Origin: Mucilaginibacter saanensis
GTDB taxonomy: Bacteria; Bacteroidota; Bacteroidia; Sphingobacteriales; Sphingobacteriaceae
Direction of reading: 5' to 3'
DNA: 64,000 bases
Assembly: GCF_014200575.1 (NCBI RefSeq)
Contig: NZ_JACHBZ010000001.1
Span: 1 to 64,000, forward strand
Part shown: positions 9,298 through 57,917 of the stretch, piece after piece
Layout: the number at the start of each line of letters is the position of its first letter
Numbering within the stretch: position 1 is the first letter of the stretch
Translations under genes and position numbers: made by a program
Notes under the pieces: generated by a model
The model's database searches: none
Told to the model about the DNA's origin: nothing
The model's input: the letters and a program-made list of their open reading frames with translations, nothing else

Positions 9298-9372
9298 ATG
9301 TTTAAATTTGTGTTTGAGAGCCTTACAAAAGTTGACAATTTGGTTGACAAATGAAGCTAAAAATTGATAAAA

Positions 9373-12503: not shown

Positions 12504-12654
12504 ATCAATATATTTTAATATATGCTGTTAAACCATTTTCAAAAACAAGGCTCCATAAATAGTGCTTTTATCGGGTTAAATATGTTATGATGTAAATATT
12601 AAACAGATATAAATTTCTTTGCAATTAATTATGAAGTATATAAGCCTATATGCT

Positions 12655-12662
12655 TACTTTTG
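12655..12662 (+). promoter_or_regulatory. -7 box for the 2-oxoglutarate dehydrogenase E1 gene
   Basis: TACTTTTG matches the Bacteroidetes -7 consensus TAnnTTTG. Transcription would start near 12669, leaving a leader of about 18 bases before the ATG at 12687. This excludes the in-frame TTG at 12660 as a start, because it lies inside the box. Confidence 0.45.
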
Positions 12663-12686
12663 TACCGTTTACAAGATCAGTTTCTC

Positions 12687-39813: not shown

Positions 39814-40710
39814 CTACGCGCTTAATTCTTCATAGGCTGCGGTTAAACCGCGTTCAATGCCATCGCCCTGCCATTCGGTTACGCCGGGGATTGCTTTTGC
39901 GGCCAGGATATCCTCTTTGGCTTTACCGGCTTTAATACTGCTGTCAACAAAGGTTACCAGGCTTTCCATAAAATGCTGCATGGCTTTTACATCGTCTATG
40001 TTGCCCGTAACTTTTTGCGGGTCAAATGCATGACCAAATACAAACAGGGTGTTTTTATCAAATTGTTTCTGCGCCTGTTCCAGGGTGGTTATCCAGCTTT
40101 TGCATGATGCACCGGCGCTGCGGTCAACAAAAGGGTAGCGGCGGTTAAAAACCAGGTCGCCGGTATGTACCACGTTGGCATTTTCAAAATGTATAAAGCT
40201 ATCGCCATTGGTATGGCCGGCGCCAAAATAGTGTGCGGTAATATGTTCATCACCCACTTTAATTTTCCAGTTGTCGGTATAAGTGGTATCGGGATATAAT
40301 TGCTTGTCTTCGGTGTGTTGTTTTACAGCGGCAGCCTTTTGGTTGGTAAGTGAGTTGGCATGTGCAGCAACATTTTTTACCAATCCCTTGAATGATATGT
40401 TACCGCTGGTATGGTCGCCATGGTGGTGTGTGTTGATCAGCCACTCAAAGGGTTTGTCTGATTGTTTTTTTAACTCGGCTATAAGGTGTGTTGCCGGGTC
40501 GGGGAATTCTGCATCAACCACTACAATACCTTCCTTGTTTACCAGCCAGGCAATAGTGCCGCCCTGCTCGGCAAACATACCTACGTTGTTGCGCAATGGT
40601 TTAAACTGATAAGCCGGATCGGCCAGTATTGACGCGAAGCTTTTTTTGCCAAATAAGGCAACGGAACCAGTAGTTAAAGCGGTGTTTACTAAAAATTTAC
40701 GACGGTTCAT
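39814..40710 (-). CDS. Metallo-beta-lactamase fold hydrolase with Tat-like signal
   Basis: The product is 298 residues. The N-terminus, MNRRKFLVNTALTTGSVALFG, is a twin-arginine type signal. The metal-binding motif THHHGDH is at residues 94-100, with further ligands in HTNGDS, VHTGDLVF and FVFGHAF. Such enzymes cover lactamases, lactonases and thioesterases, and the sequence alone does not fix the substrate. It would act in the periplasm with two zinc ions. It is a single gene between repeats and a glycosyltransferase gene. Confidence 0.85.
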   Translation of the reverse strand: MNRRKFLVNTALTTGSVALFGKKSFASILADPAYQFKPLRNNVGMFAEQGGTIAWLVNKEGIVVVDAEFPDPATHLIAELKKQSDKPFEWLINTHHHGDHTSGNISFKGLVKNVAAHANSLTNQKAAAVKQHTEDKQLYPDTTYTDNWKIKVGDEHITAHYFGAGHTNGDSFIHFENANVVHTGDLVFNRRYPFVDRSAGASCKSWITTLEQAQKQFDKNTLFVFGHAFDPQKVTGNIDDVKAMQHFMESLVTFVDSSIKAGKAKEDILAAKAIPGVTEWQGDGIERGLTAAYEELSA

Positions 40711-40809
40711 GTTATAGGATTTATGATGTAATGTTCTATAAAATTAGCTAATTTTTATTAGCGATAAAAAATATAAAGATTTAACAAAATGAGCATACAG
40801 GCATAGCTG

Positions 40810-42686: not shown

Positions 42687-43937
42687 ATGAAAAAAACTAT
42701 AAAACTAACCATCACCAGCTTGCTTTTACTTACAGCGTTTATTGTAAATGCGCAAACCCGTGTGAAAAAAGCTGTTTTTATTATTGCCGATGGCATACCT
42801 GCCGATGTTATTGAAAAGTTAAACACACCCAACCTGAAACTGATTGCCAGGCAAGGCACGTATCTGCGTGCGCATGTCGGCGGCGAAAAAGGCGGCTATT
42901 CGCAAACACCAACCATATCGGCCAATGGATATAATAGTCTACTTACAGCTACCTGGGTAAATAAGCACAATGTTTGGGGTAACGATATTAAAGCACCCAA
43001 CTACAATTACTGGAATGTTTTCCGGATGTTTAAGAATGCCTACCCGGATAAAAAAACAGCCGTTTTTTCGAGCTGGACGGATAATCGTACCAAGCTTATT
43101 GGCGATAAACTACCGGAGGCGGGTAACATCCACCCGGATTATGCCTATGATGGTTACGAGCTGGACACCGTGAAATTTCCTCACGATAAAGCCGGCAATT
43201 ATATGCATTTGATTGATGAACAGGTGGCCACATCGGCGGCGGCCTGTATTAAGGATAAAGCGCCCGACCTGTCATGGGTTTATCTGGAATATACGGATGA
43301 TATGGGGCACCGCTATGGCGATAGTCCGCAATATTATGATGCTATTGAAAAAATGGATGCTCAGGTTGGCCGTATATGGCAGGCTATTCAATATCGTGAG
43401 CAGCATTATAAAGAAGACTGGCTGATATTTATTACAACTGACCACGGCCGGGACGAACAAACTGGTAAAGGTCACGGTGGCCAAAGCACCCGCCAGAGAT
43501 CAACCTGGATGGTGACGAGCTACCAACCGTTGAATAACTATGCCCAATATTATACCCCCGGCATTATTGATATAACCCCATCTATAAACAGTTTTTTAAA
43601 TGTGAAATTACCGGTAGCCCAACTACGCGAGGTTGACGGTATATCGCTTATTGGCCCGGTATCGGTTGCGCAGGCAGCGGCCAATTATGTGCAGGGCTCG
43701 CTTGATGTAAGCTGGAAAGCGATGAATGCTAAAGGCAAAGTAAAAATATGGATAGCTGCCACCAACAATTACAAAACAGGTGAGCCTGACGATTACCAAT
43801 TATTGGCCGAGGTCCCGGTTACTAATGAACATGCCTTGCTTGACGTAAAAAAACTGACATCTAAGTTTTATAAGGTTTGTATTGAAGGTACTTATAATAC
43901 CGTGAACAGGTGGGTAGTTTTGGAGGATAAGAAATAG
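42687..43937 (+). CDS. Secreted alkaline phosphatase superfamily phosphodiesterase/pyrophosphatase
   Basis: The product is 416 residues with a Sec signal (AFIVNAQ). It has the alkaline phosphatase superfamily core: [20 protein letters not shown] with the first metal-binding Asp, the nucleophile region [46 protein letters not shown] with the second metal set, and [18 protein letters not shown] with the final His. The overall form resembles nucleotide pyrophosphatase/phosphodiesterases. It would hydrolyse phosphoesters outside the cytoplasm. It lies just beyond the organophosphorus locus but converges on it, so membership is uncertain. Confidence 0.82.
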
Positions 43938-44248: not shown

Positions 44249-46804
44249 TTAAGCAATTACCTTTCCCATCAGCGGGTCGCTGTAGCTGTGGTTGCCGGTT
44301 TCAACCCGGCCTGCATATCGTTTTTCAAATGATTGGCTGCCGCTCACCTTCACACTAAAATCATACCATCCATAGCTTTTAGCCAGGTTTAAGGTTATTG
44401 AACCATGACCGTTAGCTGCAACTGCTTTTTGGTGCTTATTGGTTTTGTAGGCGTGGTCGGTTATTTCAATGGTGTATGGTTTGCTGCTTGTATTAGCCAG
44501 TTTAAGCGCAATGTTGCCGGTAAGTTTTCCAGCTGCGCCTTGCTCATATTCGCAGGCTACATCAAGCATCGGATCGGCGGTATTGCCTTTGTATTCGCGG
44601 AAGAAGCCATTGGGGCCGTAAACGCGCAGGTGATATTCGCCGTTTTCAAATTCGTGTAGCGGCCAGTTGTCTGTAAGGCTATCGCCCGCTGTAAGTGCAT
44701 ATGACCAGGTGCGCAGGGCCTCCATCTGTTGGGCATCGTTGATGCTGGCATATTTGCCCGGGGCATAAACGTTAAATGGCGAACCTAAAGCCTTTGAACC
44801 AAATACCTTGTTATCTGCGGTGAATTTAATATCAAATGATTTTTTATCAGCACTTAACCTGCCATCGGCATAAAGCTGGTAAGGCAGTGCACAGGAAGGT
44901 TTAATACCTTTTTCCTGTTGCGGCATGTATGGCGACGAATGCGGATTTTTATTAATCTGCGCTATCTCCTCGGCATTAAGCAGTTTATAGCTGGGGAGTT
45001 TTTTAAATTTGGCTTTATGGATGCTTTCCACGAAAGCGTCTTTAGCAACAAATTCAGGGTTCTCGATCTTGTCGTTATTATACGGCCTGAAAACGCTTGA
45101 AAGATCACCGCAAACAGTACGGCGCCAATCGCTGATGTTGGGTTCTACTACTTTTTTACCGGTTTTTTTGCTTAAAAAGTCTTCCAGAAACTGTAGGGTA
45201 GAGGTATGGTCAAACACTTCGGAGTTTACCCAGCCGCCTTTTGTCCATGGTGATGCAATAACCAACGGTACGCGATAACCCAAGCCTATAGCGCTTTCGC
45301 GGTCATATACTTCGGGGAAGTTATTACGTGCTTTTTCCTGCTCCAGCGTAACAAACTCAACGCTGGTATCAATACCTTTTGAGGTTAAGCCGGTGCCGGG
45401 TTTATGCGGGTTAGGGGCAACAAATGGCGGTACGTGGTCAAAATAACCATCGTTTTCGTCATAAGCTAATATGAAGATGGTTTTTTTCCACACATCCGGG
45501 TTCTGGGTAAGTATATCCATTACCTCAGATACGTACCAGGCGCCAAACCAGGCTGAACTCGGGTGGTCTGAAAAATGTTCAGGTGCCGATAGCCAGGAAA
45601 CCGTTGGCAGCTGGCCGGTTTTTACATCGTCCCTAAACTGGTGCAATACATCGCCTTTGGGTACCAGCAATTCGCGTTCGGTACCGTTATCATCATATTT
45701 TAAATTCACCAGTTCGCGGTAATGCGGATCATTGGTGTTGGTTACAAAACCTTTTTGGTGCAGATTTTTTTCGCGTTCAGACAGGGTGGCAAATTTACCT
45801 GGATCAAGGTTTGCCATGTCTTTTTTTATTCCATCCAGATCGCGCTGCTTTTGTTTGAGCTGTTTTTGCAGGTGATCAATATGTGCATCGCCGGCAGGTA
45901 ACGCGGCTATTTGCTTTTCAAGTGCAGTGATTTCGTCAGGTAAAAGAGTTGATCTTTTTTGCAGGTAGGTAATGTGGTTATCATGCAGCTTAATGTTGTA
46001 TTGTGCAAAAAACTCTAAAGGGTTATCCTGAAAGTTTGATAACCAGGGGTCCTGCTCACCCTCCAAACCGGTATCAATAGCTACCTCATTCTGGTAATGT
46101 TTCCATGATATGCCATGATCCTCTAAACGCTCGGGGAAGGTACCCCAGGTAAGCGTTCCGTAATCCATATCATCATTCCAAACGTGCGCCAGCGAGTTTT
46201 CATGCTGCTCGGTGCGTACCGTTCCGCTCCAGAAAAACAAGCGGTTTGGGTTGGTACCGGTAAGGGCCGAGCAAAAATTCTGATCGCATACGGTAAAGGC
46301 ATCAGCCAGGGCGTAATAAAACGGAATATCTTCCCGGTTATAATAACCCATGGTAAGCGGCATGTGGCTATACTCTTTAATGCCGTTTTGTTTTACGTTG
46401 AGCCATTGGTCAAACTTACCATCATTACGGGCATTAACCTGGTTGGCCCAGGAGTGCGGTAACGACGACATCCAGGTAGCTTTGGTGCCTTTCATATCCA
46501 GGCGGAAAGGAGCATAAGTTTCGCCTTTTTTGTTGGATTGCAGCCATACCTTATTTTTATTTGGCAAATCAATAGCCCGCGGATCATTATATCCGCGTAC
46601 GCCTTTAAGGGTGCCATAGGTATGGTCAAAAGAGCGGTTCTCCTGCATCAGGATCACGATGTGTTCGGCATCCATATAGGTGCTGCCCGGCGCCGGGTTA
46701 ATTGCCATTGCCTTTTGAATTGATTGGGGCAGAACGCTTGTTAAGCCGGCAGCGCCCGTAAGTAATGCAGCTTTTTTAATAAAATCTCTCCTGGTATCCA
46801 GCAT
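44249..46804 (-). CDS. Phosphocholine-type phospholipase C, Tat-exported
   Basis: The product is 851 residues. The N-terminus, MLDTRRDFIKKAALLTGAAG, is a Tat signal. The catalytic domain has HIVILMQENRSFDHTYGTLKGVRGYNDPRA with the conserved Glu-Asn pair, ADAFTVCDQNFCSALTGTNPNRLFFWSGT, a metal-binding region ILAYDENDGYFDHVPP, and HTSTLQFLEDF. Two beta-sandwich C-terminal DUF756 domains follow (about residues 640-850). The family cleaves phosphocholine or related head groups from phospholipids and sphingomyelin. It is the last gene of a minus-strand set with the TIGR03364 oxidoreductase and the DUF5690 transporter, so the released head group probably feeds them. Confidence 0.9.
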   Translation of the reverse strand: MLDTRRDFIKKAALLTGAAGLTSVLPQSIQKAMAINPAPGSTYMDAEHIVILMQENRSFDHTYGTLKGVRGYNDPRAIDLPNKNKVWLQSNKKGETYAPFRLDMKGTKATWMSSLPHSWANQVNARNDGKFDQWLNVKQNGIKEYSHMPLTMGYYNREDIPFYYALADAFTVCDQNFCSALTGTNPNRLFFWSGTVRTEQHENSLAHVWNDDMDYGTLTWGTFPERLEDHGISWKHYQNEVAIDTGLEGEQDPWLSNFQDNPLEFFAQYNIKLHDNHITYLQKRSTLLPDEITALEKQIAALPAGDAHIDHLQKQLKQKQRDLDGIKKDMANLDPGKFATLSEREKNLHQKGFVTNTNDPHYRELVNLKYDDNGTERELLVPKGDVLHQFRDDVKTGQLPTVSWLSAPEHFSDHPSSAWFGAWYVSEVMDILTQNPDVWKKTIFILAYDENDGYFDHVPPFVAPNPHKPGTGLTSKGIDTSVEFVTLEQEKARNNFPEVYDRESAIGLGYRVPLVIASPWTKGGWVNSEVFDHTSTLQFLEDFLSKKTGKKVVEPNISDWRRTVCGDLSSVFRPYNNDKIENPEFVAKDAFVESIHKAKFKKLPSYKLLNAEEIAQINKNPHSSPYMPQQEKGIKPSCALPYQLYADGRLSADKKSFDIKFTADNKVFGSKALGSPFNVYAPGKYASINDAQQMEALRTWSYALTAGDSLTDNWPLHEFENGEYHLRVYGPNGFFREYKGNTADPMLDVACEYEQGAAGKLTGNIALKLANTSSKPYTIEITDHAYKTNKHQKAVAANGHGSITLNLAKSYGWYDFSVKVSGSQSFEKRYAGRVETGNHSYSDPLMGKVIA

Positions 46805-46876
46805 AAGTTATGAGTTCTGAGTATGTTGTACGTATTAAGTTTTACGTTAATTGGTTACCGGATGCAATTTAAGCTA

Positions 46877-46905
46877 TGATCCATTAATTGTCAACTAATG
46901 GATCA
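46877..46905 (-). promoter_or_regulatory. Hairpin that includes the stop codon of the TIGR03364 gene
   Basis: TGATCCATTA and TAATGGATCA are perfect 10-bp inverted copies with a nine-base loop. The TGA at the minus-strand end of the arm is the stop codon of the oxidoreductase gene. No T-run follows, so rather than a classical terminator it may stabilise the upstream message or reduce transcription into the phospholipase gene. Confidence 0.4.
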
Positions 46906-48027
46906 ATCTCTTTTCGCAATTACTTGTTCGCACAGGCCAAATGATAGCGTCATGCCGTTGCCGCCCATACCGTTTATAATGGTTACGCCGGGTGCCGGTT
47001 CGGTAATAAACTCTGTTGCTCCGTTAGTCATTTTAGGGTATATGCCGTGCCATGACTGTAGTAATTTCCAGTCCTTAAAGGTGGCAAAAGTATGTAAGTA
47101 CTCCGTTATCAAATTATTAATAAATGCCTTGTCAAAAGGGTCATGTACCAGTCCGTATTCGTGCGAATCGCCGATGGTAAGCGCACCGTTGCCATTTTGC
47201 GAAACCATGACATGGATACCCCAGTTTAAATGCGTGGCATATTGCTCTTCGTACCTTTGGCGCAAGGCAGATAACGAGGCCGCAGCCTGAAAGCCGGGAT
47301 AATGGATCATAGATAAACCGCCGCATAATGAGGGCCCTATGCGCCATCCGTCAGGCTGGTTAACCAGGCGCATCATTTGCAGTTTACATTTGGTGATAGG
47401 TGTTTGCGCAAAAAGCTCGGGGTAAAGGGTTTCAAAATCCGCCCCGCTGCATACAAATATTTCATCTGCCTGCCAGCTTTGAGTGCCTGACATTACTTTG
47501 GGGTGCTCAATACGGCTGATGGCGGTGTTCCAATGAAACTCCACGTCATATTTATCGGCCAAGTATTTGGCTACCTGGCCAACGGCCTCGCGCGATTCAA
47601 TGATCATTTCCTCGCCGCTCCATAAAGCACCTTTCAGACCTTCGGGATTAACTGCAGGTGATTTGGCCAGCGTTTGGGCCGGATTTAACATAGCGCAATC
47701 ACGAAAGGTGTGGTTAACCTCCACGTACTCCTGCATTACCTGTAATTCATCGGCATGGTAGGCAACATGCAAAGAGCCAACCTCATTATGCCAGATGCCG
47801 GCCTCGGTACAAATGGTTTTCCAGATGCTGCGCGAAAGCATAGCGCGCTCATACATGGGGCCGGTTGCCTGCCCAATAGGCCATACCATTCCAAAATTGC
47901 GGATGGATGCACCAACTGCATGCTCGTTACGCTCAAATACGGTTACTTTATAACCCCGCATGGCCAGAGCCCTGGCAGTAGCAAGGCCAACAATACCGGC
48001 ACCTATAATTATTGCTTGTTTGTTCAT
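46903..48027 (-). CDS. TIGR03364 family FAD-dependent oxidoreductase (phosphonate-associated)
   Basis: The product is 374 residues. It is a DAO-fold amine oxidase/dehydrogenase: IIIGAGIVGLATARALAMRGYKVTVFER binds FAD, RNFGMVWPIGQATGPMYERAM is the family-specific segment, and NGMGGNGMTLSFGLCEQV closes the flavin site. TIGR03364 genes lie in phosphonate degradation clusters, and characterised relatives oxidatively deaminate 2-aminoethylphosphonate or its N-methyl form to the aldehyde. It lies 64 bp downstream of the transporter gene. No aldehyde-cleaving PhnX or PhnA gene is in the window. Confidence 0.85.
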   Translation of the reverse strand: MNKQAIIIGAGIVGLATARALAMRGYKVTVFERNEHAVGASIRNFGMVWPIGQATGPMYERAMLSRSIWKTICTEAGIWHNEVGSLHVAYHADELQVMQEYVEVNHTFRDCAMLNPAQTLAKSPAVNPEGLKGALWSGEEMIIESREAVGQVAKYLADKYDVEFHWNTAISRIEHPKVMSGTQSWQADEIFVCSGADFETLYPELFAQTPITKCKLQMMRLVNQPDGWRIGPSLCGGLSMIHYPGFQAAASLSALRQRYEEQYATHLNWGIHVMVSQNGNGALTIGDSHEYGLVHDPFDKAFINNLITEYLHTFATFKDWKLLQSWHGIYPKMTNGATEFITEPAPGVTIINGMGGNGMTLSFGLCEQVIAKRD

Positions 48028-48091
48028 TTGTTTAATATATAAAGGAGCCAGTGGGGATAAGCCATCAATTCCCTGGTTAGTTTTTTTAATT

Positions 48092-49405
48092 TTAGCTTAA
48101 AGAAAGCACTCCTTGCTCACTTGGCTTTTTTTTATCTTTTTGTGCGCTTTGCATAAAGTATATTAATGATAATACACCGCAAATACCGCCAACTATGGCT
48201 ACAACCATAACACCTTCTTTAAAAAAGTTACCCCAGCTAATGTTGGGCCGGCCAAGTTCTTTTACCAATAAAATACTTACGCTGCCCAGGTAACCCATGG
48301 AGTCGGCCACGTACATGATAAAACCTACGTTACTGCGATAGTTAAAGGTAGCTATCATACGTTCAAAAAATATGGCATTATAAGGTACGTAACCCAGGTA
48401 AAGGCCAAGCCCGGCCATGGTCATCCAGCTTATGGGGCTTATGAGTTTTAAGGAGTACAACATGGTTGAAGCGCCAACCAGCACGCAGCCGCCTATGATA
48501 AGCAGGTGAATAATGCTGAATGCTTTGAGGTTCTTTTTAACGAGGATAAGCAAGCTCATGGCTACCAGTACAATAATAGATATGATGCTATCAATATTGG
48601 TGTAAATGCTATTGCTTTTTACGCCAAGATCGGCCCATATCTCTACTTCAAAATTATCTCGTACATCGCGCATAATGGTGAGCAGTACATAAATGATGAT
48701 GGTAAGAATAATGCCCGGTAAAAAACGGGTTAAAAACTGTTTGCGCTCGGCGGCATTCATCGGGCTGCGTTCGGCGCGTTGTTGTTTGTCTTCGATGGTA
48801 GGAGCGGGCATCAATTCCATACAAAATACAAACAGCAGCAGGGGCAGTACAAATATAGCCCCGGTTAAAAAGGGCATGTGATATTCATTTACATGAAAAA
48901 CGCTGAGTAATGTGCGCCCAACGGTTTTTACAAAGCCCGATGCAAATATTAAACTGATGGACAGTACAGCTGCCATAAACTCGGTTGAGCGGCGGCCTTC
49001 CAGGTAACCAAAAACCAGTCCCCATATTAAGCCCAGCGGAAAACCATTAATAAACAGAAAAACAATATTAAATGGTGCTGGCACAAAGGCAAAGGCTAAC
49101 AATGCCAGCCAGGCAATACCTATCAGTGTTAAAATATAGCGTGCCCTGTTTTTGCTGTTTACTTCGGCTATAAAACGGATACCATAAAATTTGCTGCAGG
49201 TGTAACCCACCACCTGTGCTATTACCAGCCAAACTTTATAATCAACATGCAGATATTGCTGCCCGGTAAACGTTCCGGCGGCAAAGGCTTTGCGAAAAGC
49301 GTACATAGAGGTGTATAACCCAAATGCTGCTACGGCTGCCATTACTGATAACAGGGAATACGGCCATTTAGCCACCTGAGCCCGTAATTGATTCATCAGT
49401 TTCAT
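48092..49405 (-). CDS. DUF5690 family MFS-like transporter
   Basis: The product is 437 residues with about twelve membrane helices. It has MFS-like features: an N-terminal helix with FGLYTSMYAFRKAF, YTCSKFYGIRFIAEVNSKNRARY on the first cytoplasmic loop, and GLIWGLVFGYLEGRRSTEFMAAVL. DUF5690 proteins occur in Bacteroidetes next to TIGR03364 and phosphonate-linked genes, so import of an aminophosphonate or a phospho-amino-alcohol through the inner membrane is likely. It is the first gene of the minus-strand set; a conserved 47-bp block lies 113 bp upstream of its start. Confidence 0.85.
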   Translation of the reverse strand: MKLMNQLRAQVAKWPYSLLSVMAAVAAFGLYTSMYAFRKAFAAGTFTGQQYLHVDYKVWLVIAQVVGYTCSKFYGIRFIAEVNSKNRARYILTLIGIAWLALLAFAFVPAPFNIVFLFINGFPLGLIWGLVFGYLEGRRSTEFMAAVLSISLIFASGFVKTVGRTLLSVFHVNEYHMPFLTGAIFVLPLLLFVFCMELMPAPTIEDKQQRAERSPMNAAERKQFLTRFLPGIILTIIIYVLLTIMRDVRDNFEVEIWADLGVKSNSIYTNIDSIISIIVLVAMSLLILVKKNLKAFSIIHLLIIGGCVLVGASTMLYSLKLISPISWMTMAGLGLYLGYVPYNAIFFERMIATFNYRSNVGFIMYVADSMGYLGSVSILLVKELGRPNISWGNFFKEGVMVVAIVGGICGVLSLIYFMQSAQKDKKKPSEQGVLSLS

Positions 49406-49517
49406 CGTTGTTACTGGTTTATGATTTCTGTAATCTGTGCTATATCATTAATAATGTGGGTAAGTTTGTAGATGAATACTACCAAGTTAACTACTACAAT
49501 ATTAATAAATAATGTTT

Positions 49518-49564
49518 AGCAATACTAAACTTTGTTTATTAATACTGAGCTAAATTAGTGTTAA
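49518..49564 (-). promoter_or_regulatory. Shared promoter/operator block upstream of the transporter gene
   Basis: Read on the minus strand this 47-bp block matches the block upstream of susC (51072-51118) at 41 positions, with 24 identical bases in a row ending AAACAAAGTTTAGTATTGCT. Its end contains TAGTATTG, one mismatch from the -7 box TAnnTTTG. Here the core also lies in a palindrome, GTTTAG-caata-CTAAAC (49514-49530). Proposed as the regulator binding site and promoter of the DUF5690-TIGR03364-phospholipase set. Confidence 0.6.
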
Positions 49565-49633
49565 TGTTTTGTTAAGTACCAGGGGCGAGAATGCGTAAAG
49601 GCTCAATCATAACCTTTACGCAGAGGGGCTTAA

Positions 49634-50209
49634 CTATTTTTTTTCTTCAAAAAAGTAAACTACCAGCATGCTGGCCGTAGTTTTCCCTAAGTTTTTAGGG
49701 GTGTGTGATATGCGGCCGTCAAACAGCATGGAGTCGCCCTGGTGCAAAACTATTTTGTCGTCATTAAATTGATATTCTATTTCGCCCTGTAAAATGTATT
49801 TATATTCAAAGGCTTCGGTTTCAACCAGCGGACGAGTTGCATTTGGTTCCAGCTCCAATATTACAATATCAACGGTGGAGTGGATCATAGACTGCGTAAA
49901 TATGCGCTGGTAGTGAAAACCTAAAGCATGTTCTTTTTCAAAATGTTCGTACTCATCTTTTCGCTTTATCAGCACGGGCAGGTGATCTTTTGAGCGGATG
50001 TCCTTAAAAAAGTCATTCAGGTCAATCTCCAGTGCTTTAATAATATCTATTAATACCATGAGCGATGGTATTGTTCGGCTATTTTCTATCTGCGATATGA
50101 GTCCTTTACTTACGTTTGCCCTTACGGCCAGTTCCTGTACGGTGATATTTTTCTCGCGGCGGCGCTCCTTTATCCGGTTACTGATCTGTATCAGTATATT
50201 TTCTTCCAT
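49634..50209 (-). CDS. XRE-family regulator with C-terminal cupin domain
   Basis: The product is 191 residues. Residues 8-62 are an XRE helix-turn-helix (ISNRIKERRREKNITVQELAVRANVSKGLISQIENSRTIPSLMVLIDIIKALEIDLNDFF). Residues about 110-188 are a cupin_2 barrel (VDIVILELEPNATRPLVETEAFEYKYILQGEIEYQFNDDKIVLHQGDSMLFDGRISHTPKN) that probably senses a small ligand. Such regulators control adjacent catabolic genes, often for amino compounds. It is transcribed away from the PhnZ-like gene and towards the transporter gene. It is the natural candidate to bind the duplicated 47-bp blocks flanking it. Confidence 0.88.
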   Translation of the reverse strand: MEENILIQISNRIKERRREKNITVQELAVRANVSKGLISQIENSRTIPSLMVLIDIIKALEIDLNDFFKDIRSKDHLPVLIKRKDEYEHFEKEHALGFHYQRIFTQSMIHSTVDIVILELEPNATRPLVETEAFEYKYILQGEIEYQFNDDKIVLHQGDSMLFDGRISHTPKNLGKTTASMLVVYFFEEKK

Positions 50210-50392
50210 TATTTAATTTAAGATTAACAATGCGCAATGTAGAACTCAAAAGTTAAAATTCAAAAAACAATAATTGCCGTAATATGGAGTTGCTCCCTTT
50301 GCCAGCTATCAGCGTGATGGATATTTCACAAACATTTAATATTTTCATAACCTGGATGCCCTTTATTTGCAGATAAAATAAAAAATTTAACC

Positions 50393-50977
50393 ATGGCCTT
50401 TTCTCAATATAATCCACACGCAGTTGTGAAAGAAGTATTTTCTCTTTACGAAAAATTTGGCGACGAAGACTATATCGGAGAACCGGTTTCGCAATTGGAG
50501 CACATGTCACAGGCTGCAGCCTTAGCGCAAGCCGAAGGTTATGATGACGAAGTGGTACTTGCTGCCTTTTTTCATGATATCGGGCATTTATGTGCCGATG
50601 CCGAAGATGTAGAAAGTATGGATGGCATGGGTAACGTTGATCATGAAAAACTGGGCGCCGATTACCTGCTGGAACGCGGTTTTTCTGAACGGGTTGCCAA
50701 CCTGGTGCAGGGCCATGTAATTGCTAAAAGATACCTTACCTATAAATTTCCAGAATATTATAACCGCCTGTCTGACGCCAGTAAAACTACACTGGACTTT
50801 CAGGGAGGTGTGATGACCGCTGATGAAGCCGCCGACTTTGAGCTTAACCCTGACGCTGAATTAATTGTACGACTGCGTTACTGGGATGATATGGCCAAAG
50901 AGATGCATGTACCCGTAGATAATATAGATGGTTTAAAACTAATGGCTCTAACGCATTTGCAACTGGTAAATAGTTGA
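50393..50977 (+). CDS. PhnZ-type HD-domain diiron oxygenase (phosphonate-associated)
   Basis: The product is 194 residues, the size of PhnZ. PhnZ uses a mixed-valent Fe(II)/Fe(III) site to cleave 1-hydroxy-2-aminoethylphosphonate to glycine and phosphate. The iron ligands known in PhnZ are all present at matching spacing: His37 (LEHMSQAA), His61-Asp62 (FFHDIGHL), His84 (NVDHEKLG), His108 (VQGHVIAKRYL) and Asp165 (RYWDD). The lid pair Tyr27 and Glu30 (DYIGEP) is also kept, which separates it from ordinary HD phosphohydrolases. It lies opposite the XRE-cupin gene and 181 bp before susC. The partner hydroxylase PhnY is absent from the window. Confidence 0.88.
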   Translation: MAFSQYNPHAVVKEVFSLYEKFGDEDYIGEPVSQLEHMSQAAALAQAEGYDDEVVLAAFFHDIGHLCADAEDVESMDGMGNVDHEKLGADYLLERGFSERVANLVQGHVIAKRYLTYKFPEYYNRLSDASKTTLDFQGGVMTADEAADFELNPDAELIVRLRYWDDMAKEMHVPVDNIDGLKLMALTHLQLVNS

Positions 50978-50993
50978 TAATTTCATATTAAGT

Positions 50994-51028
50994 TTATGTA
51001 ATGGGTATGTAATTACCCTGTTACATAA
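50994..51028. promoter_or_regulatory. Nested inverted repeat downstream of the PhnZ-like gene
   Basis: TTATGTAA (50994-51001) pairs with TTACATAA (51021-51028), and inside it GGGTA pairs with TACCC. There is no T-run, so it may be a weak terminator for the PhnZ-like gene or a regulatory site ahead of susC. Confidence 0.35.
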
Positions 51029-51071
51029 ATGCACCTGCTTAACACAGGGTGAATATAAGATTAAGTATAGC

Positions 51072-51118
51072 TTAACATTAAATTAGTTTACTAATAATAA
51101 ACAAAGTTTAGTATTGCT
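51072..51118 (+). promoter_or_regulatory. Shared promoter/operator block upstream of susC
   Basis: This is the second copy of the 47-bp block found at 49518-49564, in the same orientation relative to its gene, 40 bp before the susC ATG. The 24 identical bases span 51095-51118. TAGTATTG (51110-51117) approximates the -7 box, which would give a leader of about 36 bases. Confidence 0.6.
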
Positions 51119-51158
51119 GTATGAAAAAATCGATAACCTCACCCCTAAATTTTAGCAG

Positions 51159-54100
51159 ATGAACAAGTTTTACCAGAAACTAAAAACCATTATAACGGTT
51201 TTATTATTTTGTGTTGCTCCAGCTATTTTATTTGGACAAACCAAAATAGCAGGTACCGTTACCGACGAGAACCACTTGCCTTTACCCGGTGTAAGTGTAA
51301 GCATTAAAGGAGAAACAAAAGGCACCATTACTGATGTGGATGGCCGATACGGGCTTACTGTCCATAGCGGTCAAACACTCGTTTTTACGTTTGTTGGCTA
51401 CGCCCGCAAATATGTGGCTGTAGATGACAAAACGGTTATAAACGTAAGTATGACCGGTGATAGTAAAACACTGAACGAGGTAGTGGTAACAGCCCTTGGT
51501 GTTAAAAAAGAAACCAGACGTATTGGTTACGCATTGCAAGCCGTTAACGGAGCCGATGTAACCACCGCGCGTGACCCTAACCCTATTACAGGTTTAACAG
51601 GTAAGGTAGCTGGTTTATCAGTAGGCCCATCGGCCGAGTTATTGGGTAACCCTTCGGTTTTAATAAGGGGTAACGCTGTAACCCTGTATGTGGTTGACGG
51701 TTTCCCGATCAATACAGATACTTATAACATCAGCCCTGATGACATTGAAACTTACACCGTATTAAAGGGCCCTGCTGCTGCTGCATTATATGGTAGCCGC
51801 GCGCAAAACGGAGCTATCCTGATCACCACTAAAAAAGGTGAGAAAAATAAAAAAGGATTAACGGTTGATATCAATAGCAGTACGGTTATGAACTCCGGTT
51901 TCCTGGCTTTCCCGCGTACGCAAAATTCATACGGACCTGGCGAAAACACTTTTTATACCTTTGTTGATGGTAAAGGTGGTGCCCCGGGTGGTGTGGATAG
52001 TGATTATGACATCTGGGGGCCTTATTTTGCCGGTCAGTTAATACCGCAGTATGACAGCCCTGTTGTTAATGGTGTAAGGCAGGCAACGCCATGGCTGGCC
52101 CGTGGTAAGGACAACCTGAAAAACTTTTTGAAAACGGGTTATCAAACCAATAACAACATTTCATTAGGTGCTGTTGGTGATACTTATGTAACCCGTTTTT
52201 CGGTTTCGCAACAACATCAAACCAGCTATATCCCATCACAATACCTAGATATAGCCAATGCTAACTTTTACGCGGCCTTTACACCAACCTCCCGTTGGAA
52301 ATTTGAAGCCAACGTTGATTTTAACAGACAATCAACTGATAACTTTCCAGATGTTCAATACGGTCCTAACAGTATTATTTATAACTTATCTGTTTGGACA
52401 GGTGCCGACTGGAGTGTTAACGCCCCCGATATCAAAGCTATATGGCAGCCTGGTAAAGAAGGTGTACAATCTGAATTTGCAGAGTATACCCGTTACCACA
52501 ACCCTTACTTATTAACAGAAAAATGGACTCGCGGACATTACAAAAATGATGTTTACGGTTACCTGTCTGGTAATTACAAGATCAATGATAACCTGAATGC
52601 AACCCTGCGTTCACAAATTGATACTTATAACATTCTGCGTAGTGAGGATCTGCCGTTTTCGGCTCACCCTTATGGCCGCGAAGGTAACCAGGGCGATTAT
52701 CGCGAAGATCGCCGTAACCTGTTTGATAACAATACAGAGTTAATGTTAAACTATAACTACACCATTAAAAAATTCCTGAACTTATCAGGTTTGGTAGGTT
52801 CAAACCTGCGTAGTTTTAACTATAACTCCAGCTGGACATCAACAGATTATTTGAACGTACCAGAGGTTTACGCTTTCAGTAACTCTAAAAATGCGGTACA
52901 ATCAACCAGCTTCAGCTCACAGGAGCGTGTATTAAGCGGTTACTACTCTTTGGATGCTACGTTTGGTAAATATGCCACGTTATCAAGCACCGGCCGTGTT
53001 GATAAATCATCGGCTTTCCAGAATGTTACTACTTACTACTATCCAAGTTTATCGGTAGCTACCGTAGTATCAGATTATATTAAATTCCCTGAGATCATAT
53101 CATTCTTAAAAGCAAGGGGATCATACTCTACCGTAAAAGCCGATGCTTCGAGCCCAACAATTGGTCCTGCTCCGTTTAACGCAATTTCGGTATACCAGGG
53201 TCAAACTACTACCAGTAACCCTAATGATAACCCGTTATTCTTAAACCCGCTGGGTTATGGCAGTGTTTATCAGTCGCCCTATAACGGTCCAAGCTATCAG
53301 CTTAATCCGTTTTACTTAACCAGCAAGCCTTACAATGGTCAGCCGGCAGCTTCTGCTTCAGACTTTTTGTACCAGAACGGTATCAGAACCTCAACCCGTG
53401 TTAACTACGAGGAAGGTTTCGACATTAAATTTTTACAGAACCGTTTAGGTTTTTCAGCTACCGCGTTCCAGTATATTGATGGTCCGCAGATATTGGCAAA
53501 CAGTATTTCAACCGCTACCGGGTATACTACTTTATACCTGAATGCTTTAAAAACCAAAAAAACAGGTTATGAAGGTTCATTAGAAGGTACACCTATCAAA
53601 AACTGGGGTGGCTTTACCTGGAATGTTTTAGTTAACGTATCAACCTTTAAGGATGTTTATGAAGAGTTGCCTCCGGGTCAGGATTCATACAAACAATTCT
53701 TTAAACAAGGCGACCGTACCGACAAACTTTACGGTACTGCTTTTGCCCGCACCCCACAAGGCCAGATCATTAATGATGCTGCCGGTAAACCATTGGCATT
53801 ACCTGTTCCGCAATATCTTGGTAACGAAAACGCCAAGTATGCCTGGAGTATCAGCAACAAGATCCGTTATAACAATTTCAGCCTGGGCTTCCAGTTTGAT
53901 GGTTCTGTTGGTGGTGTTATTATTGATTACATGCACAACAAAACCATGCGTGGTGGTTCAAACATTGAAACTGCTACCGGCGCCCTGGGTGATGCCCGTT
54001 ATAAAGACTGGCAAAACTTTGGTAAAAAAGGTTACAACGGTAGCTACGTAGGCGAAGGTGTAACTGTATCAAACGGAGCATCTGTTAACTATGATCCCGT

Positions 54101-54455
54101 TACCGGTAAAATATCAAATTACAGCGCGCTGCAATACTCACCAAACAAGCAAACTGCTTTAGTGCAGGATTATGTAAGTAAGTATTACAATGTTGACGAG
54201 TCAAATCTGATGAGCAAAACATTCTCCAAACTGCGCGAGGTAACCCTGGGTTATGATTTTCCTAAAATGTGGTTGGATAAATCATTCATCAAAAAGGCAT
54301 CAGTATCGGTATATGGTCGTAACCTGTTATACTTCTATGCCGACAAACGCTTTAAGGATGTGGATTTAGATCAGTACAACGCTGCTACATCAACTACAGT
54401 GCTGCAGTCACCTACAGTGCGTAGTTACGGTGTTAACTTAAATGTATCATTCTAA
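51159..54455 (+). CDS. SusC/RagA family TonB-linked outer membrane protein
   Basis: The product is 1098 residues. It has a signal peptide (LFCVAPAILFGQ), then a CarboxypepD-regulatory-like domain (residues about 30-110, IAGTVTDENHLPLPGVSVSIKGETKGTITDVDGRYGLTV). A plug domain follows (about 115-230, NPSVLIRGNAVTLYVVDGFPI and VLKGPAAAALYGSRAQNGAILITTKKG), then a 22-strand barrel ending in SYGVNLNVSF. It forms the outer-membrane channel of a SusCD uptake pair and is powered by TonB. SusD follows after 17 bp. The neighbours point to an organophosphorus ligand rather than a glycan, which is an inference from context. Confidence 0.94.
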   Translation: MNKFYQKLKTIITVLLFCVAPAILFGQTKIAGTVTDENHLPLPGVSVSIKGETKGTITDVDGRYGLTVHSGQTLVFTFVGYARKYVAVDDKTVINVSMTGDSKTLNEVVVTALGVKKETRRIGYALQAVNGADVTTARDPNPITGLTGKVAGLSVGPSAELLGNPSVLIRGNAVTLYVVDGFPINTDTYNISPDDIETYTVLKGPAAAALYGSRAQNGAILITTKKGEKNKKGLTVDINSSTVMNSGFLAFPRTQNSYGPGENTFYTFVDGKGGAPGGVDSDYDIWGPYFAGQLIPQYDSPVVNGVRQATPWLARGKDNLKNFLKTGYQTNNNISLGAVGDTYVTRFSVSQQHQTSYIPSQYLDIANANFYAAFTPTSRWKFEANVDFNRQSTDNFPDVQYGPNSIIYNLSVWTGADWSVNAPDIKAIWQPGKEGVQSEFAEYTRYHNPYLLTEKWTRGHYKNDVYGYLSGNYKINDNLNATLRSQIDTYNILRSEDLPFSAHPYGREGNQGDYREDRRNLFDNNTELMLNYNYTIKKFLNLSGLVGSNLRSFNYNSSWTSTDYLNVPEVYAFSNSKNAVQSTSFSSQERVLSGYYSLDATFGKYATLSSTGRVDKSSAFQNVTTYYYPSLSVATVVSDYIKFPEIISFLKARGSYSTVKADASSPTIGPAPFNAISVYQGQTTTSNPNDNPLFLNPLGYGSVYQSPYNGPSYQLNPFYLTSKPYNGQPAASASDFLYQNGIRTSTRVNYEEGFDIKFLQNRLGFSATAFQYIDGPQILANSISTATGYTTLYLNALKTKKTGYEGSLEGTPIKNWGGFTWNVLVNVSTFKDVYEELPPGQDSYKQFFKQGDRTDKLYGTAFARTPQGQIINDAAGKPLALPVPQYLGNENAKYAWSISNKIRYNNFSLGFQFDGSVGGVIIDYMHNKTMRGGSNIETATGALGDARYKDWQNFGKKGYNGSYVGEGVTVSNGASVNYDPVTGKISNYSALQYSPNKQTALVQDYVSKYYNVDESNLMSKTFSKLREVTLGYDFPKMWLDKSFIKKASVSVYGRNLLYFYADKRFKDVDLDQYNAATSTTVLQSPTVRSYGVNLNVSF

Positions 54456-54472
54456 TTAAAATTAGCATAATC

Positions 54473-56086
54473 ATGAACAAGATATTTAGAATTTTAATAC
54501 TGCCGGTATTTATACTGTTGACAGTAACGGGGTGTAAAAAGAGTTTTGAAGACCTCACCAAAAATAATAACGTACCCAGCGTAGTTCCGGCATCGCTGTT
54601 ATTTAACGGAATATTAAATAAAATGGCCGATTTGCCGCAAAGCAGCAATGAAATATATTGCCAGTATTACATTTACAACTATGACTATTACGGCAATAAC
54701 CGTTATGATGCATTTGCCAATGGTGGCGACAACTACTATAACACGTTGAAAAACGTGCTGGCTATGGAGGCCCGCGCTACAGCAACAGGTGGTGGTGCCA
54801 TTAACCCTTATGAGGCTTTGGGTAAATTTTTCAGAGCTTACTTTTTCACTAAAATGAGTTTGGAAGAAGGCGACATCCCGATGACTGCAGCTTTAAAGGG
54901 AGTAGATAACCTTACACCGGTTTATGATACGCAAAAATCGGTTATGATACAGTCGTTAGCCTGGTTAGAGAGTGCAAATGCCGATTTAACCCAGCTGGTA
55001 AAAGATCCTACAGTAGGTGGTATTGGTGCCGGCGGTACTTTAACCAATGATATTTATTTTAGCAACGACCTTGCAAAATGGCAAAAAGTAGTTAATGCGT
55101 TCAGGATTAGGTTAGTGGTTGCATTAAGCAAAAAAGCAGCTGACACTGATCTTAATATAGCAGCGCAGTTTGCCAGTATCATTGGTAACCCTACCAAATA
55201 CCCGCTGATGACCAGCCTTGACGATAACCTGCAATATACCTTTGTGGCGCCAAGTAACTATTATCCGCAAAATCCGGATAATTTTGGTCAAAATGGTTCA
55301 AGACAAAACATGTCTGCAACGTATGTTGGTTTACTTACACAGTTTAAAGATCCGAGGGTATTTGTAACTGCCGAACCATCACGTTATAGCGTAGATACTT
55401 TAAAGATAAGCCCAACCAGCTTTGATGCCTTTATAGGTGCCGATCCGGGATTGGATCTTGGTTTAATGTATAACAATGCAACCTTACAGCGTTACTCATT
55501 TATTAACCGCAAGCATTATTACTCTACCTATATCGGTGAGCCAAGCATCCAGATAGGTTACCCTGAACTGATGTTTAACATTGCCGAAGGTATTAACCGC
55601 GGATGGGCTACAGGTAATGCCGAAAACTATTATGTTGCCGGTATACAGGCATCGTTCCAGTATTATGGTATCCCTACAACTGCCGGAGCAAACGTGTTCT
55701 CTGCTTACTTTTATCGCCCTGGTGCAACAAAAGGTACTGCAAGTCCGTCAAGTTATGATACTTACCCTATAAACGTAAACTGGACTACCTATTATGCGCA
55801 GCCAGCTATAAAATATACAACCGGGCAGGCCGGGCTTACCCAAATTTTACAGCAAAGGTATCTGGCACTGTTCCGTCATTCGGGCTTAGAGTCATATTTT
55901 ACCTATCGCCGTACCCTGATACCAACGTTTACCACGGGTCCGGGTACAGGTAACAGTAGCCGTATAGCGCTGCGTTTTGAATACCCAACATCAGAAAGAA
56001 CGGTTAATGCAACCAACTACAATAAAGCATTAAGCCAATTTGGTGGTAAGGATGATATTAACGGAGTAATGTGGATACTGCAATAA
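54473..56086 (+). CDS. SusD/RagB family lipoprotein (SusD-like_2 type)
   Basis: The product is 537 residues. It has a lipoprotein signal (ILLTVTGCKKSFEDL), then the alpha-helical TPR-like scaffold of SusD-like_2 proteins (SVVPASLLFNGILNKMADLPQSSNEIYCQYYIYNYDYYGNNRYDAF, ALGKFFRAYFFTKMSLEEGDIPMTAAL, NDIYFSNDLAKWQKVVNAFRIRLVVALS, IQIGYPELMFNIAEGINRGWA, ILQQRYLALFRHSGLESYFTYRRT). It caps the SusC channel on the cell surface and captures the ligand. It is co-transcribed with susC and followed by a strong hairpin terminator. Confidence 0.93.
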   Translation: MNKIFRILILPVFILLTVTGCKKSFEDLTKNNNVPSVVPASLLFNGILNKMADLPQSSNEIYCQYYIYNYDYYGNNRYDAFANGGDNYYNTLKNVLAMEARATATGGGAINPYEALGKFFRAYFFTKMSLEEGDIPMTAALKGVDNLTPVYDTQKSVMIQSLAWLESANADLTQLVKDPTVGGIGAGGTLTNDIYFSNDLAKWQKVVNAFRIRLVVALSKKAADTDLNIAAQFASIIGNPTKYPLMTSLDDNLQYTFVAPSNYYPQNPDNFGQNGSRQNMSATYVGLLTQFKDPRVFVTAEPSRYSVDTLKISPTSFDAFIGADPGLDLGLMYNNATLQRYSFINRKHYYSTYIGEPSIQIGYPELMFNIAEGINRGWATGNAENYYVAGIQASFQYYGIPTTAGANVFSAYFYRPGATKGTASPSSYDTYPINVNWTTYYAQPAIKYTTGQAGLTQILQQRYLALFRHSGLESYFTYRRTLIPTFTTGPGTGNSSRIALRFEYPTSERTVNATNYNKALSQFGGKDDINGVMWILQ

Positions 56087-56108
56087 AACTATAATAGCAA
56101 ACTTTAAT

Positions 56109-56142
56109 AAAGGCCCCGTATTTCCGGGGCCTTTATTTTTTT
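56109..56142 (+). terminator. Terminator between susD and the phosphodiesterase gene
   Basis: AAAGGCCCCG-tatttc-CGGGGCCTTT followed by a T-rich run. It ends 10 bp before the next ATG, so the phosphodiesterase gene depends on read-through or a promoter within the susD end. Confidence 0.88.
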
Positions 56143-56151
56143 AATTTTATC

Positions 56152-56970
56152 ATGAAACTACCTTTTATAATAGTAACGTTTGCCCTATTGCTGCCAAAAG
56201 ATAACTGGCAGCCCAACCCCGCACCGGCATCCAAACATCAGTTTATTGTGGCCGCACACCGGGGCGATCATGTGATATATCCCGAAAACACCCTCGCTGC
56301 TTATCAGGAAGCCATTAAAAATGAAGCTGATTATGTAGAGATTGATCTGCGGACTACCAAAGATGGCGAGCTGGTGAGTATGCATGACGCTAACGTTGGC
56401 CGCATGACCAACGGTAAGGGTCTGATCAAAGACCTAACCCTTGATGAGTTGGAACAGCTGCAGGTGAAAAGTAAGGACACCGCCAGTAATGAAACTTACC
56501 GCATACCTACCTTTAAACAAATACTGCAGCTGTGTAAAAGTAAGATTAATATTTACCTTGATTTTAAAGCGGCAGACCCGGCCGCGGCTTACCGCATGAT
56601 TAAGCAATACGGCATGGAAAAACAGGTGCTCGTGTATATAAACAGTACCAATCAGTTTACCGGCTGGCGTAAAGCTGCCCCCAAAATGCCGCTGATGCTG
56701 AGCCTGCCCGATAGTGTTAAAAATGTAGCAGGAATGGAAAGCTTTATCAATAAGTATCATGCAGATATATTGGATGGCAATTACAGCCAGTATACTGCCG
56801 GTATGGTGAAGTTTGCGGCTGGCAAACACATTCCGGTTTGGCCTGATATTCAAAGTGCCGGCGAAGGTGCCGCTGATTGGGATAAGGCATTGGCGGTTGG
56901 TTTATCCGGCTTACAAACCGATCATCCTGCTGCGTTGGTCAGGTATTTAAAAGAGAAGGGGCTACGATAA
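56152..56970 (+). CDS. Glycerophosphodiester phosphodiesterase
   Basis: It hydrolyses glycerophosphodiesters to glycerol-3-phosphate and an alcohol. The product is 272 residues with a hydrophobic N-terminus that may act as a signal. It has a GDPD TIM barrel with AAHRGDHVIYPENTLAA (His36, Arg37), DYVEIDLRTTKDGELVSMHDANVGRMTNGKG containing the metal-binding Glu-x-Asp and His-Asp, and YLDFKA. The catalytic set is complete. It lies after the SusCD pair and before a metallophosphoesterase gene, in keeping with a role in stripping lipid-derived head groups. Confidence 0.9.
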   Translation: MKLPFIIVTFALLLPKDNWQPNPAPASKHQFIVAAHRGDHVIYPENTLAAYQEAIKNEADYVEIDLRTTKDGELVSMHDANVGRMTNGKGLIKDLTLDELEQLQVKSKDTASNETYRIPTFKQILQLCKSKINIYLDFKAADPAAAYRMIKQYGMEKQVLVYINSTNQFTGWRKAAPKMPLMLSLPDSVKNVAGMESFINKYHADILDGNYSQYTAGMVKFAAGKHIPVWPDIQSAGEGAADWDKALAVGLSGLQTDHPAALVRYLKEKGLR

Positions 56971-57071
56971 TTCATTAACGCGCCATTGCAGGTAGCTGAA
57001 CAATGGTGCGTTTTTATGAGCCTTAATATCTACTTAACACGTATAACCTATTTTTATAAAAAAATTAATAC

Positions 57072-57917
57072 ATGGGCACCCGCCGAGAGTTTATAGGTAC
57101 AGGTTTAACCGGTATAGCAGCCCTTTCGCTACTACCCGCTGTTAATACCTTTGCCACTGTTAATAACGATTATAACCGGTATAGCAAAGCCCGGCCCAAG
57201 TTGCGGTTTGCACTGGCTTCTGACATTCATTACGGGCAAACCGGAACTGACTACACAGCCAATACCGGTAACATGGTTCAATGGATTAATGTCGATCACG
57301 CAAAAAATCATCTGGATATGGTAATCATTAACGGCGACCTGGTACATAACCGCCCCGATCTGCTATCAGAAATAAAAACCAACTACCTGGATAAACTAAG
57401 TATGCCGTACCATACCATTCCCGGTAACCACGATTTTGCTGATGCTGATGTATGGCAAAAGAACTTTGGCTACGAGGATAAGTATACCATTGAGTTTGGC
57501 GACATTGCTTTTGTGCTGGCCAATACTGCCGATAATAAGGGGACTTATATTTGTCCGGACAATGCCTTTATTAAGGCTTCGCTTGATAAGTTGGCTAATA
57601 AAAAAATAGTTTTTGTGATATTGCATATACCGCCGCTTAACTGGGTAAAGGCAGATGTGTTTGTTGACTGCCCGGAAACCGTTAACCTGCTGCATTCATA
57701 TCCAAATGTAAAGGCCGTTTTTCACGGGCACGATCATATGCTTGATGGAGTACGTTATACCGGTAAACTGCCGCACTTTTTTGATTCGCATATTGGCGGC
57801 GATTGGGGTACCGACTATAAAGGATACCGCATAGTGGAAGTTGATGATCAAAATGCCATTTATACCTACCAGGTTAATGCCAGCCAAAACCCGGTACTAA
57901 ACTCCACTAAATTTTAA
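57072..57917 (+). CDS. Exported metallophosphoesterase
   Basis: The product is 281 residues. The N-terminus MGTRREFIGTGLTGIAALS is a Tat-type signal. A calcineurin-like phosphoesterase core has all metal ligands: ALASDIHYGQ (Asp51, His53), VIINGDLVHN, IPGNHDFAD, VILHIPPL and FHGHDHMLDG. It is probably periplasmic and may release phosphate or cleave phosphodiesters produced by the upstream phosphodiesterase or lipase. It is the last plus-strand gene of the locus. Confidence 0.88.
   Translation: MGTRREFIGTGLTGIAALSLLPAVNTFATVNNDYNRYSKARPKLRFALASDIHYGQTGTDYTANTGNMVQWINVDHAKNHLDMVIINGDLVHNRPDLLSEIKTNYLDKLSMPYHTIPGNHDFADADVWQKNFGYEDKYTIEFGDIAFVLANTADNKGTYICPDNAFIKASLDKLANKKIVFVILHIPPLNWVKADVFVDCPETVNLLHSYPNVKAVFHGHDHMLDGVRYTGKLPHFFDSHIGGDWGTDYKGYRIVEVDDQNAIYTYQVNASQNPVLNSTKF

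Follow-up and report, generated by a model that had tools for sequence, protein, structure and literature searches.

What does a SusC-SusD pair do among enzymes that release phosphorus? SusCD systems usually import oligomers, and these importers are usually used for sugars. The first 64,000 nucleotides of contig NZ_JACHBZ010000001.1 of Mucilaginibacter saanensis (the whole stretch analysed here, called the window) carry such a pair in a locus at positions 44249..57917. The locus has two divergent arms. The minus arm encodes a phosphocholine-type (PC) phospholipase C (PLC), a TIGR03364 flavoenzyme, the membrane protein DUF5690 and an XRE-cupin protein, while the plus arm encodes an HD oxygenase, SusC, SusD, a glycerophosphodiester phosphodiesterase (GDPD) and a metallophosphoesterase. 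We consider it likely that this is an aminophosphonate utilisation locus of Mucilaginibacter, built in the form of a polysaccharide utilisation locus and belonging to the phosphate utilisation systems (PUS). An earlier, sequence-only reading had proposed that the SusCD locus is given over to organophosphorus, probably phosphonate, compounds, and this is well supported by linkage, co-occurrence and the exchange of C-P-cleaving enzymes. The substrates, cell locations, direction of transport and regulation described below are those that we infer from the genes.

Gene content of the oxidase loci

Among 251 sampled genomes of the source's taxonomic family, TIGR03364 scored over its cut-off in 91, at 92 places. 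60 of the 91 places outside the window were compared, namely all 54 scoring at least 389 bits and 6/37 scoring 324-358 bits, and together with the window these make up 61 loci. The loci were chosen by the oxidase, some of their contigs end early, and the presence of each gene was counted by tblastn score thresholds. Gene content was common to the 61 loci, and in many of them so was gene order. The oxidase (61/61), DUF5690 (60/61) and a PhnX-like HAD hydrolase (50/61) were constant. SusD was present at 46/61 loci, SusC at 45/61, and the HD oxygenase and the XRE regulator at 42/61 each. The phosphoesterases were variable, with the AP-superfamily enzyme AP363 at 25/61 loci, PLC at 18/61, GDPD at 11/61 and the metallophosphoesterase at 5/61. 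A PF01663-type AP-superfamily enzyme like that of the window was found at 13/61 loci by tblastn and at 11 by clustering, and the lyase PbfA at 11/61. SusD accompanied 44/55 high-scoring oxidases compared with 2/6 of the sampled lower-scoring ones.

A second set of 80 named loci, overlapping partly with the same genomes, contained DUF5690 at 77, the PhnX-like gene at 68, HD at 53, SusD at 52, SusC at 51, PLC at 33 and PbfA at 14 loci. As a separate observation, the lower-scoring TIGR03364 proteins (L092-L097) are 26-30% identical to the window oxidase and occur together with DUF5690 at all 6 sampled of the 37 places; PhnX-like and PbfA genes are variably present there.

Co-occurrence of SusCD with the oxidase

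61 sampled Mucilaginibacter genomes were divided into 38 with the TIGR03364 oxidase and 23 without it. A SusD orthologue (at least 66% identity) was found in 33/38 oxidase-bearing congeners and 0/23 others (Fisher 2.6e-12; the Fisher values are not corrected for relatedness). The HD oxygenase gave the same counts, 33/38 and 0/23 (2.6e-12). The PhnX-like gene occurred in 37/38 and in 1/23 (G286; 2.3e-14), and PLC in 34/38 and 10/23 (p 2e-4). A paralogous SusD, 38-42% identical, served as an internal control and showed no clear split (12/38 and 3/23, p 0.13). Linkage to the oxidase, meaning one contig and at most 15 kb, was seen among the 38 congeners for SusD in 25, HD in 30, PhnX-like in 25 and PLC in 24.

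The sequence-only reading had suggested comparing neighbourhoods for recurrent SusCD, and SusCD does recur with the oxidase. Twenty control windows of 20 kb were taken elsewhere in 20 genomes and searched with SusCD of the locus type, not with every SusCD. SusC was found in 0/20 and SusD in 1/20 of them, whereas the oxidase loci of these 20 genomes gave 16/20 and 15/20. The control windows, and the co-occurrence of the orthologue as against the paralogue, lead us to reject SusCD as a chance neighbour in Mucilaginibacter.

A C-P lyase version in relatives

PhnJ was identified in 7/61 Mucilaginibacter congeners. Three of these lack the oxidase, and in them a phn operon is followed by a SusCD paralogue, Y_phosphatase3, GNAT and DUF5690 (L194 and L193 in G286, G286:C1:2569000-2607000; L224 and L199 in G192; L223 in G254). 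PLC is present in two of the three loci, and in the third a gene shares 29% identity with a different PF04185 phosphoesterase. In the phn operon of G286, PhnH scored over its cut-off, PhnG, PhnK, PhnL and PhnD below theirs and PhnM over one model, and PhnI and PhnJ were identified. The four PhnJ-bearing congeners that have the oxidase gave no match to the SusC or SusD queries within the 20 kb compared; a GNAT match lay near in three and a 28% match to that PF04185 phosphoesterase in one. That two unrelated C-P machineries stand behind a similar front end is our best indication of a role for the front end in phosphonate use.

Elsewhere in the window genome, a SusCD paralogue is accompanied by a gene that shares 61% identity with the Y_phosphatase3 of L193 (L192, G000:C12:84000-103000), and the 19 kb there gave no match to C-P lyase or to an enzyme of the oxidase locus.

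HD oxygenase and PbfA

The HD protein aligns to PhnZ (4mlm) with E 6e-44 and to TmpB with E 2e-37, and scores below the cut-off of the TmpB equivalog NF049941 (147.7 vs 300 bits). The YxxE-loop Tyr and Glu and the diiron ligands (H, HD, H, H, D), whose roles are known from work on PhnZ and TmpB (PMC8177086), are all found in the window protein. The columns of PhnZ Tyr24, Glu27 and His34 are kept in 41/42 aligned HD proteins (one has a gap) and the remaining metal ligands in 42/42.

PbfA, an (R)-1-hydroxy-2-aminoethylphosphonate (HAEP) ammonia-lyase that yields phosphonoacetaldehyde (PMC12366243), is absent from the window and stands in sister loci that lack HD. Two proteins of locus L065 match the curated PbfA model (636 and 682 vs 525 bits), and PbfA at the other loci was called by similarity. 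HD and PbfA never shared a locus in the 61-locus set (0/61), the named set (0/80) or the DUF5690 loci of other genera (0/25). (R)-HAEP is a substrate of PhnZ-type HD enzymes and of PbfA alike (PMC12366243; PMC8177086), and the alternation of the two points to HAEP as the likely substrate that both kinds of locus share, although the counts are shaped by clades. In the 61-locus set the PhnX-like gene was present at 11/11 PbfA loci, as expected from the product of PbfA, and missing from 8/42 HD loci. The sequence-only reading had also offered methylated 2-aminoethylphosphonate (AEP) as a substrate; this fits the flavoenzyme by its family, while the HD oxygenase points to 1-hydroxy-AEP instead.

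In two loci (L064 and L069) PbfA comes after the oxidase-DUF5690-XRE arm, at the place taken in congeners by HD and this SusCD. L064 has a SusD of another type (PF07980/PF14322) further on.

Oxidase and PhnX-like hydrolase

PbfD enzymes oxidise N-methyl-AEP, and one of them also AEP, to phosphonoacetaldehyde; Acinetobacter baumannii PbfD1, annotated TIGR03364, converts N-methyl-AEP in this way, and PbfD may substitute for PhnW where PhnW is absent (PMC10590968). In the window genome neither PhnW (single model TIGR02326; best 43.6 vs 400.8 bits) nor PhnJ was found, and the oxidase is therefore a plausible source of phosphonoacetaldehyde.

In many sister loci the PhnX-like gene sits between DUF5690 and XRE. 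It is absent from the window locus, and tblastn gave no convincing relic in the 228-bp gap (best 18 residues, E 0.04). We considered whether losing the hydrolase had interrupted the pathway and rejected this, as a PhnX-like gene was found on another contig (G000:C6:229306-229968). It belongs to a second locus (L101, G000:C6:220000-239000, 6878-10900) with DUF5690, a TIGR03366-like phosphonate-associated dehydrogenase (272.9 bits vs cut-off 328.1) and an AP-superfamily enzyme. The sequence-only reading had drawn a pathway within one locus. As drawn, the pathway is incomplete there, the PhnX-like hydrolase expected to split phosphonoacetaldehyde lying on the other contig.

Among the 38 oxidase-bearing congeners the PhnX-like gene was linked to the oxidase in 25, found only elsewhere in 12 and missing from one, whose assembly is 61% complete. 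One of the 12 (G257) probably reflects an assembly break, because its PhnX-like gene shares a contig with HD and SusD. The contig C6 type and the in-locus type of L046 share only 38% identity. The column that we take, in number and role, to be that of PhnX Lys53 holds Lys in the PhnX-like alignment; in chain 2ioh the residue is Arg.

Upstream of the second locus lie large enzymes that by appearance may be glycosidases. The second locus also occurs in G286, a genome without the oxidase (L195, G286:C1:2825000-2844000, 9777-13809), where the XRE protein beside it is 70% identical to that of the window.

DUF5690

The AlphaFold model of DUF5690 has a pLDDT of 88.6. Its best Foldseek match was G6PT/SLC37A4, but VIA-align did not separate G6PT from other MFS folds, and the DUF5690 profile matched none of the sequences of solved structures. 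At DUF5690 loci of other genera, a strong match to a phosphonate enzyme was found within the compared stretch at 17/25, and SusC or SusD at 8/25 (a ninth match was weak). Our literature search, which most subscription journals lay outside, found no published account naming DUF5690, and the locus suggests a first function for it.

Phospholipase C and other phosphoesterases

The sequence-only reading had made the lipase, GDPD and metallophosphoesterase members of the pathway. PLC is a frequent but optional partner, and GDPD and the metallophosphoesterase, although present here, are rare ones. PLC surroundings were inspected in 8 of the 10 oxidase-less congeners that carry it (G286, G192, G243, G121, G072, G189, G273 and G253), and in 6/8 no other protein near PLC matched the locus proteins.

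In three oxidase-less loci (L196, L198 and L202) PLC adjoins a membrane protein of about 555 residues which, by eye, resembles the window open reading frame (ORF) 40810-42480. A 298-residue protein like window ORF 39814-40710, again by eye, is also near PLC in L198 and L202. This setting, which resembles window 39814-42480, may be the original neighbourhood of PLC.

Organisation of the window locus

Every named gene is an intact ORF that matches its named family, as the sequence-only reading had it, and the family scores exceed the curated cut-offs with the exception of the HD protein. No glycosidase family was among the matches listed for the ten locus proteins, in agreement with the absence claimed earlier. 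The PF01663 gene extends the set beyond the coordinates first given. From PLC through to the metallophosphoesterase the nine genes are separated by 17-228 bp, and PLC stands 311 bp from the PF01663 gene. The closest named oxidases, 89-90% identical, are from M. lappiensis, M. aquaedulcis and Mucilaginibacter sp. OK268. XRE/HD divergent stretches comparable to the one in the window were taken from 74 loci, 61 of them distinct; they were inspected for a common operator together with the stretch upstream of the second locus, and we claim no motif from them.

Table 1. Features of the locus, with predicted functions, in window positions.
Feature	Position	Strand	Match and status
Secreted AP-superfamily phosphodiesterase	42687..43937	+	PF01663, 71.2 bits; optional member
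Tat-exported phosphocholine-type phospholipase C	44249..46804	-	TIGR03396, 831.5 bits (cut-off 580.25); TAT-signal model match; frequent, optional
FAD-dependent aminophosphonate oxidase (PbfD type)	46903..48027	-	TIGR03364, 446.9 bits (cut-off 285.1); core
DUF5690 inner-membrane MFS-fold transporter	48092..49405	-	PF18943, 550.3 bits; core
Spacer, site of PhnX-like gene in many sister loci	49406..49633		228 bp
XRE-cupin regulator	49634..50209	-	HTH_3 and Cupin_2; core
Divergent intergenic region, XRE side / HD-SusCD side	50210..50392		183 bp
PhnZ/TmpB-like HD diiron oxygenase	50393..50977	+	TIGR03276, 213.9 bits (cut-off 214.6); core in Mucilaginibacter
SusC-type TonB-dependent transporter	51159..54455	+	TIGR04056, 441.3 bits (cut-off 368.25); core in Mucilaginibacter
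SusD-type surface lipoprotein	54473..56086	+	PF12771/PF12741; core in Mucilaginibacter
Glycerophosphodiester phosphodiesterase (GDPD)	56152..56970	+	PF03009, 111.9 bits; occasional member
Exported calcineurin-type metallophosphoesterase	57072..57917	+	PF00149, 56.5 bits; occasional member

Proposed pathway and alternatives

In the pathway that we propose, the exported PLC, the AP-superfamily phosphodiesterase, GDPD and the metallophosphoesterase would release AEP-type head groups from phosphonolipids or phosphonoglycans, and SusC-SusD would move the released or still partly linked material over the outer membrane. Lipid head groups are probably the target. DUF5690, as an MFS transporter that may be related to the organophosphate antiporters, would bring free aminophosphonate into the cytoplasm, where two routes may run in parallel. 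In one, the TIGR03364 flavoenzyme would deaminate N-methyl-AEP and/or AEP to phosphonoacetaldehyde, which the PhnX-like hydrolase of the second locus would split into acetaldehyde and phosphate. In the other, the HD diiron oxygenase would convert (R)-1-hydroxy-AEP, or a methylated form, directly to phosphate plus glycine, or methylglycine in the latter case. Both divergent arms may be regulated by the XRE-cupin protein. If this pathway is correct, it shows by what means Bacteroidota of the soil gain access to phosphonates, a phosphorus pool that is mostly studied in organisms equipped with ABC transporters for it, and the SusD proteins are expected to have an organophosphorus compound, not a sugar, as their ligand.

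Several points weigh against it. A small molecule such as free AEP needs no SusCD. SusC was absent from 16/61 and SusD from 15/61 loci, some of them on short contigs; the lower-scoring oxidase subgroup had SusD at only 2 of its 6 sampled loci; and 10/12 Dyadobacter loci of the 80-locus set lacked it. PLC often stands apart, being linked in 24/38 oxidase-bearing congeners, present in 10/23 without the oxidase and alone in most of those inspected. The PhnX-like protein of the second locus misses the curated cut-offs (TIGR03351, 216.5 vs 218.9; TIGR01422, 107.9 vs 220). The HD protein misses TIGR03276 by 0.7 bits and is therefore called PhnZ/TmpB-like and not filed as a member. Nor was a partner recognised for it: none of the 5 PhyH proteins scanned, out of 6 matches in the genome, came near a PhnY or TmpA cut-off (best 36.4 vs cut-off 500; the sixth match lies at C4:108284).

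This last result makes a naturally hydroxylated head group a likely substrate of HD. We also put forward, tentatively, a wider proposal that we hold possible but do not favour: a phosphonolipid front end of Bacteroidota (PF12771-type SusCD, PLC-type lipase and DUF5690 permease) with exchangeable C-P back ends, in which a PhnY-free HD is fed 1-hydroxy-AEP. The interchangeable back ends would be the FAD oxidase with the PhnX-like hydrolase, the HD oxygenase, PbfA or the C-P lyase. HD could work without PhnY because lipid head groups would supply 1-hydroxy-AEP in finished form; a sphingophosphonolipid of Bdellovibrio stolpii, cited in PMC12366243, reportedly contains 1-hydroxy-AEP. As the C-P enzymes differ between strains and the front end is similar, substrate predictions can be tested by strain comparison.

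SusCD might instead import a phosphonoglycan, that is, an AEP- or HAEP-decorated glycan or lipophosphonoglycan, whose decoration phosphodiesterases would strip in the periplasm. This would suit the general preference of SusCD for oligomers and the several linked phosphoesterases of the AP superfamily, which are not lipases (AP363 is at more loci than PLC). We regard it as doubtful but worth keeping in mind, given that no glycosidase family was listed for the window proteins and that PLC, where present, is of the phosphocholine type. Another alternative is general phosphate scavenging from ordinary phospholipids (phosphocholine, phosphoethanolamine and glycerophosphodiesters), to which the phosphonate enzymes would form a side branch. 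PC-PLC, GDPD, the AP-superfamily enzyme and the metallophosphoesterase are generic phosphoesterases, and enzymes of this sort are found in the PusCD loci already described, which react to phosphate depletion (PMC8115612). It is unlikely in view of the survey, where the phosphoesterases were variable (PLC, GDPD and metallophosphoesterase at 18, 11 and 5 of 61 loci) and the oxidase, by which the loci were selected, DUF5690 and the PhnX-like gene were constant (61, 60 and 50), and where neither the SusD orthologue nor HD occurred in any of the 23 congeners without the oxidase. Finally, the aminophosphonate operon could be self-contained, with SusCD and the lipase beside it by chance or through shared ancestry, as the SusCD-free loci, for example those of Dyadobacter, and the solitary PLC genes would suggest. 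The control windows, the orthologue counts set against the paralogue, the SusC or SusD genes at DUF5690 loci of other genera and the SusCD paralogue at 3/7 C-P lyase loci make this very improbable, and for SusCD in Mucilaginibacter it is largely refuted; PLC may still be such a neighbour.

Comparison with known systems

The proposed aminophosphonate locus resembles parts of several known systems. Like the PbfD/PhnX hydrolytic pathway (PMC10590968), the window genome combines a TIGR03364 flavoenzyme with a phosphonatase-like enzyme and gave no PhnW match with the one model searched. It departs from that pathway as described in that a PhnX-like protein (TIGR03351-type, scoring under the cut-off), encoded away from the locus, takes the part of the hydrolase, and in that the cluster adds SusCD, DUF5690, XRE-cupin and the HD oxygenase. 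With PhnY/PhnZ and TmpA/TmpB (PMC8177086) it shares a diiron oxygenase with the YxxE loop and metal ligands. The substrate of PhnZ is 1-hydroxylated and is made there by PhnY (PMC8177086), whereas the window locus has no 2-oxoglutarate hydroxylase, and none was recognised among the five PhyH proteins scanned. PbfA (PMC12366243) shares a compound with PhnZ and is not in the window locus. C-P lyase (phnG-M) operons adjoin a SusCD paralogue and DUF5690 in three relatives, while the window genome lacks PhnJ.

Our search, with most subscription journals outside it, found no account of this gene set in the literature, and the portion of PMC10574752 available to us had nothing on Bacteroidetes. PusCD 'phosphate utilisation systems' with phosphonate genes have been published for Flavobacterium (PMC8115612), and the term PUS is reused in PMC8812569; the kind of system is therefore already known. 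The window locus likewise sets a SusC-SusD pair among enzymes that release phosphorus rather than among glycosidases. Phosphate control is a demonstrated property of the Flavobacterium PUS only. Flavobacterium PusD1 is PF07980/PF14322 (PMC8115612), whereas the window SusD is PF12771/PF12741. TIGR03364, the HD oxygenase and DUF5690 are not named in the accessible text of the Flavobacterium account, which identifies its phosphonate enzymes in a figure (PMC8115612). We regard the window locus as a variant of the PUS kind, whose general concept, PusCD, is already in print.

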